Below are positions 3,327 to 60,820 of a stretch of DNA of 64,000 nt, piece after piece. The stretch's first letter is position 1. Each line of letters opens with the position of its first letter. Origin of the DNA: Nostoc carneum NIES-2107 (lineage in GTDB: Bacteria > Cyanobacteriota > Cyanobacteriia > Cyanobacteriales > Nostocaceae); contig AP018180.1 of the NCBI GenBank assembly GCA_002368155.1, positions 1,570,777 to 1,634,776 on the forward strand, read 5' to 3'. The translations under genes were made by a program, and so were the position numbers. The notes under the pieces were generated by a model. The model had not been told where the DNA came from and did no database searches. It saw only the letters and a list, made by a program, of their open reading frames with translations.

Positions 3327-3683
3327 TTAAACTTTACTTGTACTAGCTAATTGACGGCAAGAATCAGCACAACGGTGACAAGATGCAGCACAGCGTCGGC
3401 AATGGTCATGGTGATGTTTATCACATTCTCTACCGCAGCGATCGCAAGCTTCCGCACATAAATTACACAGATGAGGATACAAAGGCGAATTGCGTGCCAT
3501 CAAGCGAGTGCAGAGTGTACAAGTATCAGCGCAGTCTTGGCACAGCTTGATACATTCAGCCATCATCTGTACCATATCGCTATGTAAACAAGCATTAGCA
3601 CAGTTTTCGCAATCGCGTACACAATCAAGACAATTTTGAATGCAAATATCAATCAAAGATTGGTAATTTGTAGTAGTTGTCAT
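3327..3683 (-). CDS. Four-helix-bundle copper-binding protein (DUF326/Csp-like)
   Basis: A 118-residue cytosolic protein with 21 cysteines, spaced as CxxC, CxxxC and CxxCxxxC along predicted helices, plus a His cluster (CDKHHHDHC). This is the pattern of DUF326 and Csp-type copper storage proteins, in which cysteines line the inside of a four-helix bundle and hold many Cu(I) ions. No signal peptide is present, so storage or buffering in the cytosol (Csp3-like) is the best inference. The gene stands alone. No copper-sensing operator was recognised upstream. Confidence 0.85.
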   Translation of the reverse strand: MTTTTNYQSLIDICIQNCLDCVRDCENCANACLHSDMVQMMAECIKLCQDCADTCTLCTRLMARNSPLYPHLCNLCAEACDRCGRECDKHHHDHCRRCAASCHRCADSCRQLASTSKV

Positions 3684-8377: not shown

Positions 8378-9394
<1,017 letters not shown>

Positions 9395-9411: not shown

Positions 9412-9426
9412 TGATAATCGTTTTCA
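9412..9426. promoter_or_regulatory. Zur-like box upstream of hemB
   Basis: TGATAATCGTTTTCA is a 7-1-7 imperfect palindrome close to the cyanobacterial Zur operator TGATAATnATTATCA. It sits 33 bp before the hemB start codon, where a repressor would cover the promoter. Confidence 0.65.
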
Positions 9427-10978: not shown

Positions 10979-10993
10979 TGAGAATCGTTATCA
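10979..10993. promoter_or_regulatory. Zur-like box upstream of the COG0523 GTPase gene
   Basis: TGAGAATCGTTATCA is a 7-1-7 palindrome differing slightly from TGATAATnATTATCA. It ends 29 bp before the GTPase start codon at 11022. Confidence 0.7.
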
Positions 10994-11021: not shown

Positions 11022-12065
11022 ATGACTACCACAGCCCCAAAGCCAGCAACGAACGATGAATTACTTGATATTCCTAAACGGGGAATGCCAGTCACAATCA
11101 TTACAGGATTTTTAGGGAGTGGGAAAACAACTCTCCTAAACCAAATTCTTAAGAATAAGCACGACTTAAAAGTTGCCGTTTTGGTTAACGAATTTGGTGA
11201 TATTAATATTGACAGTCAGCTACTCGTATCGATGGATGAAGATATGGTAGAACTGAGTAATGGCTGTATTTGTTGTACTATTAATGATGGTTTAGTTGAT
11301 GCTGTTTATCGCGTTTTAGAAAAAGAAGAGCGCATCGATCATCTAGTAATTGAAACTACTGGCATAGCAGATCCACTGCCAATTATTCTGACTTTTCTAG
11401 GTACAGAACTTAGAGATTTAACAAAAGTAGATTCTATCATCACCGTAGTAGATTCTGAAGCTTTTACACCTGAGCATTATGAAAGCGATGCTGCATTACA
11501 ACAAATCACCTATGCAGATGTAGTTCTTTTGAATAAAACTGACCTCACAACCACACAAAAGCTAGCAGAATTAGAAGCTTATATTCATGATGTGAAAGCC
11601 GAAGCTAGAATCATTCACACGAGATTTGGTGAAGTAGCTTTACCTTTAATTTTAGATGTAGAACTAACTCCAGTAGATGAGTATACCTCAAAATTAGGAG
11701 CAGATAATCATGAGCATCATCATGAACATCATGAGCATCATGACCACCACCACGAGCATAAACATCACTCTCATCATTTAGACAATGATGGATTTATAGC
11801 GATATCATTTCAGAGCGATCGCCCTTTTAATGTGAGTAAGTTTCAAACCTTTCTTGCTGACAAATTACCTACCAATGTCTTTCGTGCTAAAGGTATACTG
11901 TGGTTTAGCGAAAGTGAATTAAGACATATTTTTCAACTGAGTGGAGCGCGTTATCAATTAGATGCAGATGAATGGCTTTCTTCACCCAAAAATCAGTTAG
12001 TTGTAATTGGTAGAAATCTAGATAATAAAGAAGTTGCCTCACTCCTGAATGAATGTTTAGTATGA
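11022..12065 (+). CDS. COG0523 (CobW/ZNG1-type) metal-handling GTPase, His-rich
   Basis: A 347-residue G3E-family GTPase. The P-loop is TGFLGSGKTT (about 28-37), the metal site is GCICC (81-85; C82, C84, C85), and NKTD gives guanine specificity. Between the GTPase and CobW C-terminal domains (about residues 229-253) is a His-rich loop built from HEHH and HDHHH units, expected to bind zinc. Such proteins hand metal to client enzymes. A Zur-like box precedes it and a zinc-dependent folE follows on the same strand 201 bp later, so GTP cyclohydrolase is a candidate client. Cobalt handling cannot be excluded, but no B12 genes are near. Confidence 0.92.
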   Translation: MTTTAPKPATNDELLDIPKRGMPVTIITGFLGSGKTTLLNQILKNKHDLKVAVLVNEFGDINIDSQLLVSMDEDMVELSNGCICCTINDGLVDAVYRVLEKEERIDHLVIETTGIADPLPIILTFLGTELRDLTKVDSIITVVDSEAFTPEHYESDAALQQITYADVVLLNKTDLTTTQKLAELEAYIHDVKAEARIIHTRFGEVALPLILDVELTPVDEYTSKLGADNHEHHHEHHEHHDHHHEHKHHSHHLDNDGFIAISFQSDRPFNVSKFQTFLADKLPTNVFRAKGILWFSESELRHIFQLSGARYQLDADEWLSSPKNQLVVIGRNLDNKEVASLLNECLV

Positions 12066-12266: not shown

Positions 12267-12902
12267 ATGACTCTCTCAATTACTCCAGAACTAATTTCTG
12301 CTACCGCTTTACCCAATCAACAATTACCTCATGTTACAGAATCAGACATGATTCAAGCTGTGCGTACTTTGTTAATTGGCTTAGGAGAAAATCCTGATAG
12401 AGAGGGTTTAAAAGATACTCCAAAAAGAGTAGTTAAAGCCCTACAATTTCTCACTAAAGGATATGATGAATCTTTGGATGAATTATTAAATGGGGCAGTA
12501 TTTACAGAAAATGCCGATGAAATGGTGTTAGTTAGAGACATCGATATTTTTAGTTCCTGCGAACACCATATATTACCGATAATTGGTCGCGCTCATGTGG
12601 CATATATTCCTAATGGCAAGGTGATAGGATTATCGAAAATTGCCCGAATTTGTGAAATGTATGCACGCCGTTTGCAAGTTCAGGAACGCTTGACTATACA
12701 AATTGCCGATGCACTGCAAGGTTTACTGAAACCTCGAGGCGTAGCAGTAGTATTAGAAGCAACGCATATGTGTATGGTAATGCGCGGTGTTCAAAAACCT
12801 GGTTCTTGGACTGTTACCAGTGCAATGCGGGGAGTGTTTGCAGAAGATGTCCGCACTCGTCAGGAGTTTATGAATTTGATTCGGCACAATGCTAGCTTTT
12901 AG
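12267..12902 (+). CDS. folE: GTP cyclohydrolase I (FolE1)
   Basis: A 211-residue enzyme converting GTP to 7,8-dihydroneopterin triphosphate, first step of folate and pterin synthesis. The zinc ligands are intact: C98 and H101 in SSCEHHILP and C169 in [10 protein letters not shown], so this is the zinc-dependent type, not FolE2. ATG 12267 is preferred; in-frame sequence upstream is repeat-like and not conserved. It follows the Zur-boxed COG0523 GTPase in the same direction, and that pairing suggests the GTPase secures zinc for it. It may be a second FolE copy used under zinc shortage, which one genome-wide count would settle. Confidence 0.95.
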
Positions 12903-12944: not shown

Positions 12945-12967
12945 ATTATGATAATGATTATCATAAT
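12945..12967. promoter_or_regulatory. Perfect extended Zur-like palindrome upstream of the FAD oxidoreductase
   Basis: The core at 12949-12963 is TGATAATGATTATCA, an exact match to the 7-1-7 Zur consensus. The symmetry extends to a perfect 23-bp palindrome (two 11-bp arms, one central base). It ends 12 bp before the start codon at 12980. It is the strongest such site in the window. Confidence 0.8.
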
Positions 12968-12979
12968 CTTTGTGAGCAA

Positions 12980-14221
12980 ATGCAAGATACTCCACCATCA
13001 ATACCTCAGACAATAGACCTAGCAATTATTGGTGCTGGCCCTCATGGCTTAACCCTAGCCACTCACCTCCTACAAAAGCGGCAAACCATGCGGAGTAGAT
13101 TTTTGGTGTTTGACCCCAGTGGAAGGTGGATGAGTAATTGGCAGCACCAATTTGCAGCTTTAGAAATTCCTCATTTGCGTTCCCCCGCTGTTCATCATCC
13201 TGACCCCAATCCTTTTGCATTGCGGAAGTTTGCTGAATCTCGTTCTAGTGAGTTATTTGCACCCTATGATTTACCAGGAACTCAGCTATTTGAGGATTTT
13301 TGCCAGGATGTAATTTCTCGCTGTTCATTGCCGCAGCAAGTAGTTCCTTTAAACGTGATTCGCATTGAACCTCTGCGTCATTTGATTCGTCCACGCTTGC
13401 GTCTGTGGTTGCAAGATGGACAATCGATTATGGCGCGGCGGGTAGTATTGGCAACGGGTAGCGCTAAACGAAACTTCCCCGACTGGCTATATCAAATTGA
13501 GTCCGAGTATCCCCAAGATAGGCTTTGTCATTCCCAAGCTGTAGATTTACGGAGGTTACATTTTCTGGGGGAAAAAGTCTTAATTATTGGTGGCGGATTA
13601 ACTAGTGGACATTTAGCTATAGGTGCGATTTCCCGTGGTGCAAAAGTCCATTTAATCATGCGCCGACAATTGCAAGAGAAATTATTTGATGCGGAACCAG
13701 GTTGGTTAGGGCCAAAGTATCTGAAGGGATTTTTTGCAGAACCGAATTATGAACAGCGCTTTACCATGATTAGGCGAGCGCGTAATGGGGGTTCCATGAC
13801 ACCAGCGATGGGAATGCAACTGCGGCGACAAGTGCGTAGTGGTAATCTCAAAATTGATGAAAACTGTGAAGTAGTAAAAGCTGAGTGGTTGGGTACGAAT
13901 TGGTTACTAAAATGTAGTGATGGTAGCCAGCATGAATACAACAGAATTTGGCTTTCTACTGGCACTCAATTTGATGCTACATCTGAGCCATTATTACAAG
14001 AAGTTTTGGCAGCTTATCCAACTCCTATAATTAATGGTTTACCTGTATTAGATGAATATTTACGTATTCCTGGTTCGGAATTATTTATTATGGGTGGGTT
14101 AGCTGCTTTGCAAGTAGGCCCAACCGCCAGAAATTTGTCAGGTGCGAGAATGGCGAGTGACAAGATTGTTCCGGCAATTGTGAAGCGGAGTCTGGCGCTT
14201 TCCCACCTGAGAAGTGCTTGA
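12980..14221 (+). CDS. FAD/NAD(P)-binding oxidoreductase (flavin monooxygenase-like)
   Basis: A 413-residue flavoprotein. The N-terminal FAD motif is IIGAGPHGLTLA (about 17-28) and a second nucleotide motif, IIGGGLTSGHLA, lies near 203-214. An ATGSAKR segment lies between them. This layout matches lysine/ornithine N-hydroxylase-like and FMO-type enzymes. The substrate is not evident. A perfect Zur-type operator lies just upstream, and the next genes are a COG0523-like protein and two phosphoesterase-like proteins on the same strand. A role in making or repairing a metal-binding metabolite or centre under zinc shortage is an inference only. Confidence 0.85.
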   Translation: MQDTPPSIPQTIDLAIIGAGPHGLTLATHLLQKRQTMRSRFLVFDPSGRWMSNWQHQFAALEIPHLRSPAVHHPDPNPFALRKFAESRSSELFAPYDLPGTQLFEDFCQDVISRCSLPQQVVPLNVIRIEPLRHLIRPRLRLWLQDGQSIMARRVVLATGSAKRNFPDWLYQIESEYPQDRLCHSQAVDLRRLHFLGEKVLIIGGGLTSGHLAIGAISRGAKVHLIMRRQLQEKLFDAEPGWLGPKYLKGFFAEPNYEQRFTMIRRARNGGSMTPAMGMQLRRQVRSGNLKIDENCEVVKAEWLGTNWLLKCSDGSQHEYNRIWLSTGTQFDATSEPLLQEVLAAYPTPIINGLPVLDEYLRIPGSELFIMGGLAALQVGPTARNLSGARMASDKIVPAIVKRSLALSHLRSA

Positions 14222-14235
14222 TTTTTTTAAAACCA

Positions 14236-14250
14236 TAAAAACGATTATCA
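14236..14250. promoter_or_regulatory. Weak Zur-like half-site
   Basis: The right half ATTATCA (14244-14250) is exact; the left half TAAAAAC is poor. It lies 7 bp before the start codon at 14258, where a bound repressor would also block translation initiation. Binding is uncertain. Confidence 0.4.
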
Positions 14251-14257
14251 TTCTGGT

Positions 14258-15028
14258 ATGATACCCATAATTACCGTAGTTGCTGGGCCAGTCGGTTGTG
14301 GCAAAACTACTTGGATTGAACAGCAGTTGAGATTACAACAGCAAGAAAAAGTACTGTATTTTAGCCCTGGTACAGGTGCTGTTCCCATTGACCAAACGCG
14401 CCTAGGTGCTGAATTTCCATTTGTGAAAGTTTTTAGCGATAGTGAAAGAATTGAGTTTTTGAACCAACTCACAGTAGCGGATGCGGTTTATCTAGAATTG
14501 GGATTTTATTTAGAATTAAGCGCAGTAGCCCAAATTTTGGATAACTTACAGTACCATGCGATCGCACTTTTACCCCCACACATGCAAAATTCGGAATGGC
14601 ACGATTGGGCGAATGAAATTATACCAGGTGTAAATATTCCAACTACTGTGTCACAAGCCAAGCTATGGAGGGCTTCCAGCACTGGCGAAGTTGTTGACGA
14701 AAGTAGTTTAGCAGAATTTTGGTACGAATTAACACATAATGCTTATGGCACAGTTACCCGTGCGAAAGGCATTTTTAATCTTGCTGATGGGCGTTATTTA
14801 TATACAGATTATGTTGCTGGTATTCCCAAAGATGATTTTAGGGAATTAAACTTACCCCGCTATTTAGAAGGAAGGCCACAACGCTTTAGTGGGATAGAAG
14901 TTTTTGCGGAAAACTTAGATGAAGTAAATGTAGCGAAAACATTGCAAGATTGCTGTTTATCTGAAGCCGCTATTTTGCATTATCAAGAACAGACCAAACA
15001 ATTGCTTGCAGAGGAAATAGAAGCGTGA
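14258..15028 (+). CDS. COG0523-like P-loop protein lacking the CxCC metal motif
   Basis: A 256-residue protein with a clear Walker A (VAGPVGCGKTTWIEQ, about residues 8-22), then a shortened G3E-like core. Where COG0523 proteins have GCxCC there is only SPGTGAVPIDQTR. A C-terminal half around VTRAKGIFNLADGRYLYTDY matches the CobW C-terminal domain. At 256 residues it is short for the family (about 320-350). NKxD is not evident. So it keeps nucleotide-binding potential but not the metal-transfer cysteines. Its stop overlaps the next start by 4 bp, showing translational coupling to the phosphoesterase. Confidence 0.8.
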   Translation: MIPIITVVAGPVGCGKTTWIEQQLRLQQQEKVLYFSPGTGAVPIDQTRLGAEFPFVKVFSDSERIEFLNQLTVADAVYLELGFYLELSAVAQILDNLQYHAIALLPPHMQNSEWHDWANEIIPGVNIPTTVSQAKLWRASSTGEVVDESSLAEFWYELTHNAYGTVTRAKGIFNLADGRYLYTDYVAGIPKDDFRELNLPRYLEGRPQRFSGIEVFAENLDEVNVAKTLQDCCLSEAAILHYQEQTKQLLAEEIEA

Positions 15029-15837
15029 AAATAGCAGTTATCTCATGTATTCATGGTAATTCTGAAGCTTTAAATGCTGTCTTATTAGATATTGATAAAC
15101 ACAAAGCTGAAAAAATTTTTTGTCTAGGTGATTTAGTAGGATATGGCCCCTATCCTAATGAAGTTGTAGCTCAAATTCGTTCTTTAGAGATTCCCACTTG
15201 TGCTGGTTGTTGGGATGAAGATATTGTTGAAGGTTTGAATGCTTGTGAGTGCAGTTATCCCTCATTGTTAGCGGAAAAACGGGGACATTTAGCTCATGAG
15301 TGGACAAACAAAGAAATTCAGCCAGAAAACCGCGAATTTCTTGCCCAACTTCCCTACAGTTTACGTCAAGAAAATTTAGCTTTCGTGCATGGTAGCCCTC
15401 ACAGTAATCATGAATATTTATTACCAGAACTGGATGCTTTTGTTGCCCTAGAAAGGGTGCTAGCTGTGAATGCAGATGTGCTATTTTGCGGTCATACTCA
15501 TGTACCTTATATCCGGAATTTGGATGCGGGGAATTTAAAAGTTTGCATCAAAACTGAAGATGTAAAAGCCCAAGAAAGGAGTTTTAATACATCTGTAAAA
15601 CGAATTATTAATGTTGGTTCGGTTGGGGAACCAAGACATGGGCGACCCAATGCAACTTATGTAATTTATGACACGGATACTCAACAAGTAATGTTGCGAG
15701 AAGTTCCTTACGATTATCAAAAAACTTGCGCGGCGATTGTTGAAAAAGGCTTACCTGCAATTTTTGCTTGGCGTTTAGCGCAGGGTTTGGAATTTGCGGA
15801 ACGAGCGGATGATCCGACTCATGTTTGTACGAGGTGA
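15025..15837 (+). CDS. Calcineurin-like metallophosphoesterase with Cys-substituted metal ligands
   Basis: A 270-residue protein of the MJ0936/YfcE-like phosphoesterase family. GDLVGYGP (from residue 35), VHGSPHS (near 121) and FCGHTHVPY (near 156) are intact. The first motif, normally DxH in SDIHGN, reads SCIHGN, so the first metal ligand is Cys8. The GN(H/Y)D motif reads GCWDED, so the Asn is Cys62. Two ligand positions turned to Cys suggest a changed metal preference (zinc or iron) or loss of the usual chemistry. GTG start, 4-bp overlap with the COG0523-like gene. Substrate unknown. Confidence 0.85.
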   Translation: MKIAVISCIHGNSEALNAVLLDIDKHKAEKIFCLGDLVGYGPYPNEVVAQIRSLEIPTCAGCWDEDIVEGLNACECSYPSLLAEKRGHLAHEWTNKEIQPENREFLAQLPYSLRQENLAFVHGSPHSNHEYLLPELDAFVALERVLAVNADVLFCGHTHVPYIRNLDAGNLKVCIKTEDVKAQERSFNTSVKRIINVGSVGEPRHGRPNATYVIYDTDTQQVMLREVPYDYQKTCAAIVEKGLPAIFAWRLAQGLEFAERADDPTHVCTR

Positions 15838-15900
15838 TGGGGAAGGGGGAATGGGGAATGAGGAATGGGGAATGGGGAATGGGGAAGGGGGGAGGGGTTC
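15838..15900. repeat. Heptameric short tandem repeat (GGGGAAT)
   Basis: Tandem GGGGAAT and GGGGAAG units fill the gap between the two phosphoesterase-like genes. In-frame reading through it gives only MGNGEGG-type sequence, so it is not part of either protein. Confidence 0.75.
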
Positions 15901-15928
15901 AACAATTGAAAATCTAAAATCTAAAATT

Positions 15929-16681
15929 ATGATGAAATGGGCTATTTTGAGTGGTATTGAGGGTAATTTGGCGGCTTATGAGGCTGTGATAGCAGATATT
16001 AAGCGTCAAAGTCGGTTGATAGAGGCTTTGTATATTCTTGGTGATTTAGTTGGGCCGACACCAGAATCGGAAAAACTGGTGGAACGGGTACGTAAACCTC
16101 GGCGTGGTGAGTTAGAACCTATGGTTTGTAAGGGGTGGTGGGAGGAACAATGTTTGATTTTGCATGGTTTGGCTGCGACAGGAGAACCTACTGAGTTGAT
16201 GGCTAAGTATGGCGGAGATACGGCGAAAATGCTTTGGGATAGTGTTTCTCGCCAAACAGTGCAATGGATCAGAAACCTTGATTTTGGTTTTTTTGAACTG
16301 GATTGTTTGCTAATTCACGGGACAACGGTATCTGTGGATGAGGAACTGACACCAGATAGTTCTCCAATTATGATGTGCGATCGCCTCTCACGAATGCAAG
16401 CCCATAATTTATTCTGCGGTCGTTCTGGTTTAGCTTTTCAATATCAATTACAAGCAGGTTCCATTACTACAGGCGTTACTACCCTGGATAGTAGCGCTGC
16501 TTCTCAAACGATTAACATTACCCCAAGTCAAGTTGTGGGTGTAGGTAATGTTGGACGCACCCCAGGAAAAGCAATTTACACTCTCTACAACCCCAGCACA
16601 AATGATGTGGAGTTTAAAACTATTCGTTATGGGGTAAATAAAGGATTTAGCACAAGTTTACGGTCTACTAAATTGGCATAA
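15929..16681 (+). CDS. Degenerate metallophosphoesterase-like protein (probable pseudo-enzyme)
   Basis: A 250-residue protein that aligns by motif order with its upstream neighbour but has lost nearly all metal ligands. The first motif is LSGIEGN instead of SDIHGN, the second is GDLVGPTP, the third CKGWWEEQ, and the GHTH motif is CGRSGLAF. IHGTTVS and VGNVGRTP keep the fold. It should therefore be a non-catalytic partner or sensor. The start is ATG 15929 (or the next codon, 15932); upstream sequence is tandem repeat. It is probably the last gene of the operon starting at 12980. Confidence 0.75.
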   Translation: MMKWAILSGIEGNLAAYEAVIADIKRQSRLIEALYILGDLVGPTPESEKLVERVRKPRRGELEPMVCKGWWEEQCLILHGLAATGEPTELMAKYGGDTAKMLWDSVSRQTVQWIRNLDFGFFELDCLLIHGTTVSVDEELTPDSSPIMMCDRLSRMQAHNLFCGRSGLAFQYQLQAGSITTGVTTLDSSAASQTINITPSQVVGVGNVGRTPGKAIYTLYNPSTNDVEFKTIRYGVNKGFSTSLRSTKLA

Positions 16682-59100: not shown

Positions 59101-60820
59101 GGTGCCCACAACCTATGTAATTCTCAAGCACATTCCTCTGACAAGCGAGGGTAAAGTCAACCGTCAAGCGCTACCCGAACCACATCTTTATTTAGTGGAA
59201 CTAGAAAATAAATTTGTACCGCCACGCACGCCAACGGAAGCTGTGATTGCAGATATCATTGCCACAGTTCTACATTTAGAAGAAATTGGCATTCACGATA
59301 ATTTCTTTGCTTTAGGTGGAAATTCTTTATTAGCAATTCAGGTAATTTATCGGCTACGACAAGCTTATCAGTTAGACTTACCTTTGGGATGTTTATTTGC
59401 AGCACCCACAGTAGCAGAACTAGAGAATTTCATTACTACCTATCGCCAAACTGAGTTAGGAGAAATAATACCGAATATAGACATAGCCTCACAAAATCAA
59501 ACCGAGTTTCCTCTATCCTTTGCTCAAGCAAGACTGTGGTTACTCGACCAAATGATCGGCAAAAGCGCTACTTACAATATATCTTTTGCGGTCAGAATTT
59601 TTGGTAATTTAGATATTAATGCCCTAGAGCGTAGTTTGTGCGAAATCGTGCAGCGTCACGCCAGCTTGCGAACTAACTTTCAGGTAGTCAAAGGTTTGAG
59701 CGTACAGGTAATTAATCCTACAGCCACACTCACCTTACCTGTTGTCAACTTGCAGAGTTCGCCAGAACCAGAGAACGAAATGTACCGACTAGCCAAGATA
59801 GAAGCTCATATACCTTTTAACTTAGCTAGCGATGCCCTGATTCGTGTGAAACTGTTGCAATTAGCTCCTGAAGAATATGTATTATTATTGACTACTCATA
59901 CTATTGTGTGCGATCGCTGGTCAATGAGAATCCTCCAGCAAGAATTGTCTATTTTATATCCAGCTTTTTGTGCAGGTCAGCCTTCCCCCTTACCAGATTT
60001 ACCCATCCAATATGTAGACTATACCCTTTGGCAGTGGAAATCCTTAAGCACCAAAGTTTTACAACAACAAAGTAACTACTGGAATCGGCAGTTATCTGGT
60101 GTAAAACCAGTACTAGAATTACCTACAGATAGACCAAGAAAACCCTTACAAAAAATCAAAGGTAGCAGTCTCAAGATTGAAATTGATTATCAACTGAGCC
60201 GACAATTAAAAACTCTCAGTCAGCAATCAGGTGTTACCTTATCTACCACTTTGTTAACAGTTTTGTCTGTCTTACTATTTCGCTATAGCGAGCAACAAGA
60301 TATTTTAATTGGAACTCCTATTGCTAACCGCCACCAAGATACTGAATCCATCATCGGCTTTTTTGGCAACCTCTTAGTGCTACGAATAAATATTAGAGAA
60401 AATCCTACTTTTAGCGACCTTTTAACTCATGTACAACAAGTAAAATTAGCCGCTTATGCTCATCAAGATGTTCCCTTTGAGCAAATTATCAAAACCTTAC
60501 AACCGGAAAGTTCCCTCAATCAAAATCCTTTAGTACAAGTCATGTTCAAATTAGAATCTAGTTCCTTCATTTGGGAAATTCCGGGTTTGAGTGTGACTCC
60601 CATTGAAATAGAAAAAATGACTGCCAAGTTAGATTTAAGTCTAGTCCTATTGGAAACAGCCAACGGACTTAAAGGCATTTGGGAGTATAACAGTGACTTA
60701 TTTGACTGCGAAACCATCATCCGTATGAGCGAACATTTCAAGACTTTGTTAGCTGCAATTGTGAGCAATCCTCATCAGACAATTAGACAAGTTCCGTTGT
60801 TATTAGTTCGTAATTCGTAA
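56111..60820 (+). CDS. Orphan nonribosomal peptide synthetase, domain order C-A-PCP-C, catalytic motifs altered
   Basis: A 1569-residue NRPS. A TubC-like docking start (1-55) is followed by condensation domain 1 (about 70-500), adenylation (about 530-1020), carrier protein (about 1040-1110, LGGNSLLA with the pantetheine Ser) and condensation domain 2 (about 1130-1560). The HHxxxDG motif reads HQIAGDM in C1 and HTIVCDR in C2, so the second, catalytic His is gone in both. The adenylation P-loop reads TFTDEKAKG instead of TSGSTGKPKG, while NAYGPTEN, YKTGDL and GKVNRQAL are kept. Pocket residues (D, A, L, W, L, G, A, T, F) resemble valine codes. The protein stops after C2 in a repeat; no thioesterase or partner is near. 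Confidence 0.9.
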   Translation: MKTVDELLSELWSLNVKLWTEGNSLRYSNKETLSPNLLAQLRSQEAEILATLNPSFSYLVRPSAGYTSYCALSHGQQALWFLYQMAPESVAYNIFQTVRIKSDLDIEAWQRAWQKISDRYAILRTTYTIRNGQPVQQIHEQKKVDLELIDAFGWSQEDLNTQIYQETDRPFKLQSGPVLRVRLFTNTQLGNVQLIVMHQIAGDMWSLDLLLQELQVVYAAEINNEATLSQSIPAVSYQYTDYVSRHSQKLETAQEQLWEYWQKQLKGELPILDLPTNKLRPPVQSYQGNSAIFKLDTELIAQLQQLQKSAKVPLYIIMQAAFFVLLYRYTGQEEILLGTTMTGRSASRKFHEIIGYLSNIAVLRGYLAPQLTFRELLSQLNQVVLGALRHQDAPFSLLVEKLKIKRDRSRFPVVSACFSWHQHRLKSMPELEMEILPLGSQRGSIFDINCKLTQVNHEYYLIWEYNSDLFGAEAIAKMQSHYQTLLEGIVSNPDQTIGKLPLLTTAERHQLLVEWNNTSTEYPQKSIHQLFAEQVELTPDAVALVFAEQKLTYQELNQKANQLAHYLQSLGVGPEVLVGICVERSLEMIIGLLGILKAGGVYIPIDSTYLPEQIEHIFAETQLTVLLTQTRLRESFHVNPIHTICLDGDWNLIAEHSPENPSVPITSTNLAYLMYTFTDEKAKGVSIIHRGVVRLVKNNNYANFSPEDVFLQLAPITFDAATLEIWGSLLNGARLIILPPQTSKLSDLAQAIKEYQVTTLWLSSGLFDSMVDEQIADLKQLKQLLTGGDILSVFHVKKLLQAAPELKLINAYGPTENTTFTCCYHITETSHIDTAIPIGRPIANTQVYVLDKELQPLPVGIPGELYIGGDGLAQSYFQQPDLTATAFISNPFQPETRLYKTGDLARYLPDGNIEFMGKIDQQVKIHGLRMELEEIETALSQHPKVQQAVVTINNNELGNPYLVAYIVPEPHPKKATTSTLKSTALRRFLQQQLPEYMVPTTYVILKHIPLTSEGKVNRQALPEPHLYLVELENKFVPPRTPTEAVIADIIATVLHLEEIGIHDNFFALGGNSLLAIQVIYRLRQAYQLDLPLGCLFAAPTVAELENFITTYRQTELGEIIPNIDIASQNQTEFPLSFAQARLWLLDQMIGKSATYNISFAVRIFGNLDINALERSLCEIVQRHASLRTNFQVVKGLSVQVINPTATLTLPVVNLQSSPEPENEMYRLAKIEAHIPFNLASDALIRVKLLQLAPEEYVLLLTTHTIVCDRWSMRILQQELSILYPAFCAGQPSPLPDLPIQYVDYTLWQWKSLSTKVLQQQSNYWNRQLSGVKPVLELPTDRPRKPLQKIKGSSLKIEIDYQLSRQLKTLSQQSGVTLSTTLLTVLSVLLFRYSEQQDILIGTPIANRHQDTESIIGFFGNLLVLRINIRENPTFSDLLTHVQQVKLAAYAHQDVPFEQIIKTLQPESSLNQNPLVQVMFKLESSSFIWEIPGLSVTPIEIEKMTAKLDLSLVLLETANGLKGIWEYNSDLFDCETIIRMSEHFKTLLAAIVSNPHQTIRQVPLLLVRNS

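Follow-up and report, generated by a model that had tools for sequence, protein, structure and literature searches.

Three adjacent genes in the cyanobacterium Nostoc carneum NIES-2107 constitute a real, conserved unit, linked to zinc, that is present in some cyanobacteria. They lie within a stretch of 64,000 nucleotides (hereafter the window; contig AP018180.1 of assembly GCA_002368155.1, positions 1,570,777 to 1,634,776 of the forward strand) that derives from a genome of 9.36 Mb, and they encode a P-loop protein related to the COG0523 family, a metallophosphoesterase with cysteine at two of its metal ligand positions (MPP), and a pseudo-metallophosphoesterase paralogous to it (pMPP). The reading favored here, to which we assign a probability of about 0.5, is that this trio is a zinc-deficiency unit linked to the regulator Zur, made up of a thiol-rewired relative of the arsenate reductase Car1, a dead paralogue, and a COG0523-like NTPase of its own. 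An original prediction, made from the letters of the window alone, had combined these genes with a preceding gene for a flavin adenine dinucleotide (FAD) enzyme into a four-gene metal pathway. The four genes are present on the same strand, with the second and third overlapping by 4 bp (positions 15025-15028), as follows:

12980-14221, + strand: FAD/NAD(P)-binding oxidoreductase gene, an optional associate of the trio
14258-15028, + strand: P-loop protein gene, a degenerate COG0523 relative that retains Walker A and a CobW_C-like C-terminus but lacks CxCC and NKxD
15025-15837, + strand: MPP gene, a Cys-metallophosphoesterase with a GTG start, ligands C8 and C62, and the motifs C74-x-C76 and H266-x-C268
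15932-16681, + strand: pMPP gene, a pseudo-metallophosphoesterase paralogous to MPP in which most of the ligands are missing

An earlier start for pMPP at 15794 (a TTG frame of 295 amino acids) was set aside as less likely, since homology extends only from the ATG at 15932 (249 amino acids).

Conservation, gene order, and decay of the trio

The distribution of the four genes was examined in 194 cyanobacterial genomes, with search thresholds of 1e-3 for the P-loop protein, 1e-40 for MPP, 1e-20 for pMPP, and 1e-60 for the FAD enzyme; matches were obtained in 43, 41, 44, and 27 genomes, respectively. All 41 genomes that encode MPP also matched the P-loop protein and pMPP, such that the trio occurs together in 41 of 194 genomes (Fisher p of 5e-40 and 7e-39 for MPP with its two partners, values that are not true probabilities given that the genomes are related). 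The FAD gene was detected in 22 of these 41 genomes, with no match in the other 19, as compared to 5 of the 153 genomes outside this group, two of which (G005 and G080) carry remnants of the trio. The expectation that all four genes co-occur across cyanobacteria is therefore upheld for the P-loop protein, MPP, and pMPP and fails for the FAD gene, which is not obligate; the set is better described as three plus one.

Gene order was examined in a second collection consisting of the loci of the best 80 of 588 relatives of MPP (hereafter named loci), all of them cyanobacterial, which overlaps in species with the 194-genome sample and is not independent of it. Among these 80, the best match to the window was Calothrix membranacea FACHB-236, with an MPP that is 98% identical. 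The P-loop gene lies at most 400 bp ahead of MPP in 71 of the 75 named loci with enough upstream DNA, and pMPP starts at most 1000 bp after MPP in 67 of the 75 that are not cut off and is elsewhere in the locus in 4. In 29 of 41 adjacent pairs, the P-loop and MPP genes share exactly 4 bp, which suggests that their translation is coupled. For the overlap and distance counts, gene starts were assigned automatically to whichever start codon was closest to the aligned start, and locus L165 was counted twice among the pairs used for MPP-to-pMPP distances.

Genomes with a partial trio hold remnants, indicating that the three genes decay together. In G005 (locus L166), a single open frame encodes most of the P-loop protein followed by a segment of MPP that retains CxC and a segment of pMPP, and G080 carries part of the P-loop gene together with a pMPP gene that is incomplete. 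Fragments of pMPP were found in G145 and G139, in the latter case with a stop. Similarly, plasmid pAQ7 of Synechococcus PCC 7002 (locus L178) carries pieces of the P-loop and pMPP genes, and no match to MPP was found on that plasmid. Intact MPP is absent from G005, G080, and PCC 7002, all of which retain remnants of its partners. Taken with the overlap and the gene order, this shared fate indicates that the trio is one unit. The trio was also observed in three small genomes (1.8-2.9 Mb; L145, L146, and L177), in which the P-loop protein is 25-27% and MPP 59-60% identical to that of the window and in which hemB, cobW, and folE were not found within the 18-kb loci.

MPP and its dead paralogue

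The MPP of the window matches the family Metallophos_2 of calcineurin-like phosphoesterases above the cut-off (8.8e-22). Among solved structures, 3rqz is nearest to it in sequence (2.4e-37), and its nearest structures by fold are 3rqz and SapH (3qfm); both resemble MPP in fold and in length, with the difference that Asp and Asn occupy the positions of the two Cys ligands in 3rqz. The ligand positions of MPP, assigned from the pattern of the family together with the alignment to 3rqz, are C8, H10, D36, C62, H122, H157, and H159, and all seven are invariant in the alignment of 42 MPP sequences (42 of 42 retained). Five of these positions (H10, D36, H122, H157, and H159) carry the usual residue and two (C8 and C62) carry Cys, in agreement with the exchange of Asp and Asn for Cys that had been claimed from the motifs SCIHGN and GCWDED. 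Sequencing error as the source of the Cys codons was rejected on the basis of this invariance. Among the 80 named MPPs, C8 is found in 78 and the other six ligand positions in all 80. Further residues are conserved outside of the ligand set: all 42 sequences, like the 80 named ones, have C74, C76, C155, H266, and C268, and R204 and H205 are likewise invariant, while C235 is present in 42 of 42 but in 77 of the 80 named sequences.

The same residues bear on two other explanations of MPP. First, MPP could be a hydrolase like SapH or YfcE with ordinary activity, acting for example on diadenosine tetraphosphate (Ap4A) or another nucleotide of zinc stress, with Cys ligands that hold zinc more tightly and keep the enzyme active when zinc is scarce. 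All seven positions are kept as possible ligands, and the titles of the nearest folds, 3rqz and SapH, refer to an asymmetric Ap4A hydrolase and phosphodiesterase. However, the invariant C74-x-C76 and H266-x-C268, the dead paralogue, and the overlap with an NTPase gene are left unexplained by such a hydrolase, and we consider it unlikely. Second, MPP and pMPP could together form a zinc holder or scavenger, that is, a thiol-rich carrier lacking enzyme activity that trades zinc with COG0523 proteins. The presence of five invariant Cys and His residues (C74, C76, C155, H266, and C268) in addition to C8 and C62, along with COG0523 and folE neighbors, would fit such a carrier; H122, H157, H159, R204, and H205 are invariant as well, though, as catalysis would need, making this explanation rather unlikely, somewhat more so than an ordinary hydrolase.

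The paralogy of MPP and pMPP is evident from profile comparison (hhalign, 99.9%, E of 1.1e-33), and MPP is the nearest relative of pMPP by BLAST among the sequences compared. The alignment of pMPP comprised 39 of 47 sequences, with the short L132 and L139, the fragments L147, L149, L150, L166, and the second piece of L165, and the intact L175 (231 amino acids) omitted. At the ligand positions, G8 is found in 39 of 39 sequences, His at position 10 is lost in all 39 (Glu in 34), W69 is found in 36, and R164 in 38, and the altered motifs that had been read in the window (SGIEGN and CGRSG) do contain G8, E10, W69, R164, and G166 as claimed. D38 and H129 are retained in 39 of 39, and no Pfam family matches any of the 39 members at E<=0.01. 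The mean column identity of pMPP is 57%, as compared to 74% for MPP, the most conserved of the trio, and 43% for the P-loop protein; this conservation suggests that pMPP is under selection although its ligands are lost. In a tree of MPP, pMPP, and outgroup sequences (37 rows), pMPP and the outgroups were each grouped firmly, MPP was grouped in 0% of bootstrap trees, and branches were very long.

A COG0523-like protein that has lost its metal motif

The P-loop protein was modeled with a predicted local distance difference test (pLDDT) value of 93, and its best fold matches are to YjiA, with the zinc-bound form at the top (E of 4.6e-9). Its C-terminal domain aligns with the CobW_C domain of COG0523 proteins (hhalign, 94.6%, E of 7.2e-8), and Pfam CobW_C is matched at E<=0.01 by 30 of 40 members, the protein of the window falling below the cut-off with an E of 0.02. 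These 40 members were drawn from 45 frames, with three fragments, the decayed fusion of L166, and an odd 286-amino acid frame in L174 omitted; the last two were included in a separate set of 42 rows. Walker A is present in 39 of 40 and D45 and E80 are invariant. The absence of CxCC, noted originally for the window alone, extends to all relatives (0 of 40, as compared to 11 of 11 regular COG0523 controls). Likewise, NKxD, the guanine-recognition motif of G3E GTPases, was detected by regular expression in 1 of 40 P-loop proteins and in 11 of 11 controls, and His-rich stretches in 0 of 40 and in 8 of 11 controls. The protein therefore shares with COG0523/G3E metallochaperones, a group that includes ZagA, YjiA, and the product of the CobW-like gene at 11022, a Walker A motif, a CobW_C-like C-terminus, and a zinc-response setting, and differs from regular members in the loss of CxCC, NKxD, and the His-rich stretch. 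The CxCC metal-binding motif is stated for all COG0523 members in the portion of the family survey that was available (PMC2770081), and because CxCC is absent here, the P-loop protein is not a COG0523 member by the published definition, yet it appears to derive from that kind of protein.

Zinc neighborhood and Zur-like boxes

The genes and Zur-like boxes that surround the trio in the window are as follows, with boxes scored against a presumed cyanobacterial Zur consensus:

8378-9379, - strand: hemB, delta-aminolevulinate dehydratase (Pfam ALAD, 3.8e-151), a frequent neighbor of the trio
9412-9426: Zur-like box with 2 mismatches, 32 bp ahead of hemB
10979-10993: Zur-like box with 2 mismatches, 28 bp ahead of the COG0523 gene
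11022-12065, + strand: regular COG0523/CobW gene (Pfam cobW, 5e-59; CobW_C, 1.2e-21), a frequent neighbor of the trio
12267-12902, + strand: folE, GTP cyclohydrolase I (NCBIfam folE, 1.4e-81, above cut-off), a frequent neighbor
12949-12963: perfect Zur-like palindrome TGATAATGATTATCA with 0 mismatches, 16 bp ahead of the FAD gene
14236-14250: Zur-like box with 3 mismatches (weak), 7 bp ahead of the P-loop gene, stronger in some relatives

The product of the regular COG0523 gene carries CICC at residue 82 and a His-rich stretch. The family match of folE begins at 12270, and its ATG at 12267 was read from the sequence. A DUF326 protein at 3327-3683 lies close to these zinc genes. Across relatives, at least one zinc-response neighbor (queries for hemB, folE, COG0523, ZnuA, ThrS, DUF1636, or the FAD enzyme) was found in 34 of 42 loci, the window included, and in 55 of 79 named loci, for which L180, a near copy of the window, was omitted from the 80. 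For example, plasmid A of Trichormus variabilis ATCC 29413 carries the trio next to hemB, thrS, hisI, and genes for a zinc ABC transporter and a COG0523-like GTP-binding protein. The FAD enzyme itself has only weak solved relatives, such as the flavin monooxygenase 4c5o (E of 2e-4). A role in phage defense was set aside, since none of the four proteins matched PADLOC at 0.001.

The 15-bp palindrome at 12949-12963, predicted as the strongest Zur box, does match the consensus at every position. Four matches with at most 2 mismatches occur in the window, three of them ahead of the hemB, COG0523, and FAD genes and the fourth at 60178. The host genome contains two perfect sites besides that at 12949-12963, one situated between divergent genes read from the sequence as putative znuA and znuC-znuB and the other within a kinase-like frame, and a one-mismatch site (G000:C1:497863-497877) is located about 20 bp ahead of another COG0523 gene in the same genome. 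A further one-mismatch box was observed outside of the window, 62-48 bp before its first position, ahead of a 238-amino acid frame (62-778) that has no Pfam match. Among relatives, the 250 bp ahead of the P-loop gene contain a box with at most 2 mismatches in 15 of 43 loci (0.35% of single-base shuffles, as used throughout for upstream boxes), those ahead of the FAD gene in 12 of 19 loci (0 shuffles), and those ahead of pMPP in 4 of 42 loci (0.36% of shuffles), while no such box was found in the 250 bp ahead of MPP in any of 42 loci. The support for the boxes is thus their position and not their number. With boxes ahead of the P-loop gene and none ahead of MPP, the trio is probably transcribed mainly from the P-loop promoter. 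The trio itself would be under Zur control.

Published Zur regulons share much of this setting. In Synechococcus PCC 7002, both a zur mutation and zinc chelation raised hemB-II, folE-II, the GTPase-like G0131, and the FAD gene G0132, while G0130 and the phosphoesterase-annotated G0129 showed no increase in the mutant, according to the accessible part of that study (PMC4628125). Gene order would identify G0131 as the P-loop remnant, and since this strain carries pieces of the trio and no match to MPP, its Zur transcriptome could hardly have seen MPP. The Zur regulon of Anabaena 7120 lists COG0523, hemB2, thrS2, and folE2 (PMC6103462), and that of WH8102 is small, comprising znu genes and unknown neighbors (PMC9337993), in both cases as given in the available excerpts. 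The regulons of Anabaena 7120 and PCC 7002, to the extent that these excerpts cover them, therefore resemble the surroundings of the trio in hemB, folE, COG0523, and thrS and, for PCC 7002, in the FAD and GTPase-like genes. The trio as a unit, its Cys sites, and its dead copy are not mentioned in the available parts of PMC6103462 and PMC4628125, the trio of PCC 7002 being in pieces. Two metallophosphoesterases of Nodularia spumigena with adjacent numbers, nsp29340 and nsp29350, are listed under phosphate acquisition in PMC3610870 and may be an MPP/pMPP pair. In the literature searched, no paper was found that contains both COG0523 and metallophosphoesterase. The description of the pathway as undescribed thus applies to the trio, which was not found described in that literature, and not to the FAD gene, folE-II, hemB-II, and the GTPase-like neighbor, whose rise in the zur mutant of PCC 7002 is on record in the excerpt cited above.

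Relation to Car1-type arsenate reductases

Car1 of Rufibacter tibetensis is a metallophosphoesterase that acts as an arsenate reductase and for which Cys74 and Cys76 are essential; Orf1, encoded in an ars operon of Paraclostridium dentum and two further strains, is about 40% identical to Car1 and has both Cys, as stated in the accessible part of the report (PMC12124457). MPP is likewise a metallophosphoesterase with Cys74 and Cys76. In a plasmid collection, the best matches to MPP outside of cyanobacteria come from Bacteroidota (20 of 37 records listed), and the surroundings of ten non-cyanobacterial records, encoding eleven MPPs, were read. Eight of the eleven are encoded in seven ars operons (Adhaeribacter, Pontibacter, Mucilaginibacter with two, Rubrobacter, Flammeovirga, Paraclostridium, and Hymenobacter), and three are encoded outside of ars operons (Haloplanus, Azospirillum, and Thalassospira). 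A CxC motif is found at the aligned place in 6 of the 8 ars-operon MPPs, the second Mucilaginibacter copy and the Flammeovirga protein lacking it, as compared to 0 of the 3 others, and it is numbered exactly 74 and 76 in Adhaeribacter and in Mucilaginibacter copy 1. Judging from these comparisons, the CxC motif seems to be ancient within this branch of MPPs and tied to thiol chemistry. On a plasmid of Mucilaginibacter robiniae (L262, 3001-4493), tandem metallophosphoesterase genes lie behind ACR3 in the ars operon, with CxC in the first and not in the second; this tandem pair may have arisen independently of that in cyanobacteria. Such tandem genes have been named mrme1 and mrme2 and called uncharacterised, in the available portion of PMC10652896.

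These relationships raise the question of whether MPP is a true arsenate reductase, that is, a Car1 orthologue placed under zinc control. The shared numbering of Cys74 and Cys76 with the essential residues of Car1, as they are described in the accessible text, and the 31-37% identity of MPP to four ars-operon MPPs are consistent with this possibility. However, ars neighbors (queries for ACR3, ArsM, ArsR, ArsC, and ArsH) were found in 0 of 42 and 0 of 79 trio loci with queries from other phyla at 1e-8, a search that distant forms may escape. Further, all eleven outgroup MPPs, including the eight from ars operons, retain Asp at position 8 and Asn at position 62, where the cyanobacterial MPPs carry Cys, and neither a P-loop gene nor a dead copy is annotated within 2.5-3 kb of the ars-operon MPPs. 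With no ars neighbors in 121 loci (42 + 79), an arsenate reductase as such was set aside and is regarded as improbable. Of the proteins compared, only those of cyanobacteria show Cys ligands and an HxC tail. These two features, together with the dead paralogue, the COG0523-like partner, and the zinc setting, distinguish the cyanobacterial MPP from the ars-operon/Car1 kind, the comparison with Car1 being by its description only.

Weighing the zinc-deficiency unit

Several observations weigh against the trio being a Zur-linked, thiol-rewired unit. The window contains 12 box matches with at most 3 mismatches, a number that exceeds chance only weakly, as shuffled sequences average 6.6 and 5 of 100 shuffles reach 12, and the box is not enriched in the genome relative to a reversed control (3 versus 2 perfect sites; 8 versus 13 with at most 1 mismatch). 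Moreover, the box ahead of the P-loop gene of the window itself is the weak one, with its 3 mismatches, and the fold match between the P-loop protein and YjiA has a low TM-score (0.31). Two loci from Crocosphaera metagenome-assembled genomes (L231 and L232) encode D8 rather than C8. The predicted model of MPP is poor where it is critical, with pLDDT blocks of 63 and 59 over residues 61-80 and 55 at the C-terminus, and the proximity of C74, C76, and C268 to the metals is therefore not supported by the model. Additionally, pMPP was not found in 4 of the 75 named loci with enough DNA, is at least 1.8 kb from MPP in two loci (L144 and L165), and is on a separate contig in two genomes (G070 and G078). 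Finally, G187 encodes an intact MPP (271 amino acids) and pMPP (231 amino acids) while its P-loop gene lies elsewhere in two frames (204 and 81 amino acids); the MPP-pMPP pair may thus function in the absence of the P-loop protein, or the unit may be decaying in that genome. In favor of the unit, however, MPP and pMPP of G187 immediately follow a znuA-like gene, and a znuC-like gene is divergent (L175, 5126-8787). As a side observation, in the two Crocosphaera loci pMPP is about 3 kb off or was not found in the locus.

The situation in G187, with the pair intact and the P-loop gene interrupted and elsewhere, would be expected if the trio comprised separate co-regulated enzymes that are neighbors because each is useful in zinc deficiency. 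The variable presence and place of hemB, folE, cobW, and the FAD gene around the trio could be read in the same way. Unlike those genes, though, the members of the trio are found together in all 41 MPP genomes and keep their order and 4-bp overlap, and we view separate enzymes as an explanation with little chance of being correct. Of the metal-linked set first proposed, then, the Zur-like boxes, the CxCC-less COG0523 relative, the conserved rewired site, and the conserved dead copy are retained, and the four-gene unit is not. The original prediction had overlooked the connection of C74-x-C76 to Car1-type phosphoesterases, the H266-x-C268 tail, and the missing guanine-recognition motif of the P-loop protein.

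A possible mechanism and its implications

If the trio is a zinc-deficiency unit, its sequence features allow a mechanism to be outlined, for which we infer a physical complex, a loading step, a metal, and a reaction. MPP would contain a two-metal site that has gained one thiolate in each half, with C8, H10, D36, and H159 at site 1 and D36, C62, H122, and H157 at site 2, a division that we assume from the family. MPP would most likely carry out thiol-dependent reactions in which the substrate is an oxyanion or resembles phosphate. C74 and C76 might serve as a redox or metal-holding pair, and C74-x-C76 could form a third metal site with H266-x-C268. The dead paralogue pMPP may have been retained as a structural or regulatory partner subunit. 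In keeping with G3E GTPases that are encoded beside their clients, the P-loop protein, an NTPase that would have lost its own metal site in its descent from COG0523, may be a dedicated loading or activating factor of MPP; metal might be carried by the regular CxCC-bearing COG0523 protein encoded next door. In its fullest form, this would be a metal-handling machine in which an NTPase lacking a metal site acts on a heteromer of thiolate-phosphoesterase and dead copy, recovering zinc from other proteins or carrying out redox chemistry on a phosphate-like oxyanion during zinc starvation, a picture that we put forward tentatively and as more doubtful than the zinc-deficiency unit itself.

COG0523 proteins are common in responses to zinc starvation, and their clients are mostly unknown. 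A COG0523 relative that lacks a metal site and whose gene overlap, order, and co-occurrence tie it to a single apparent client offers a direct test of the notion of one chaperone for one client. The trio also bears on why Cys would take the place of the Asp and Asn ligands of a phosphoesterase under zinc scarcity, and it links redox phosphoesterases of the Car1 kind to metal homeostasis beyond arsenic. If the reading proposed here is true, MPP would be, after Car1, a further case of a phosphoesterase fold turned to thiol chemistry, in this case one in zinc homeostasis.

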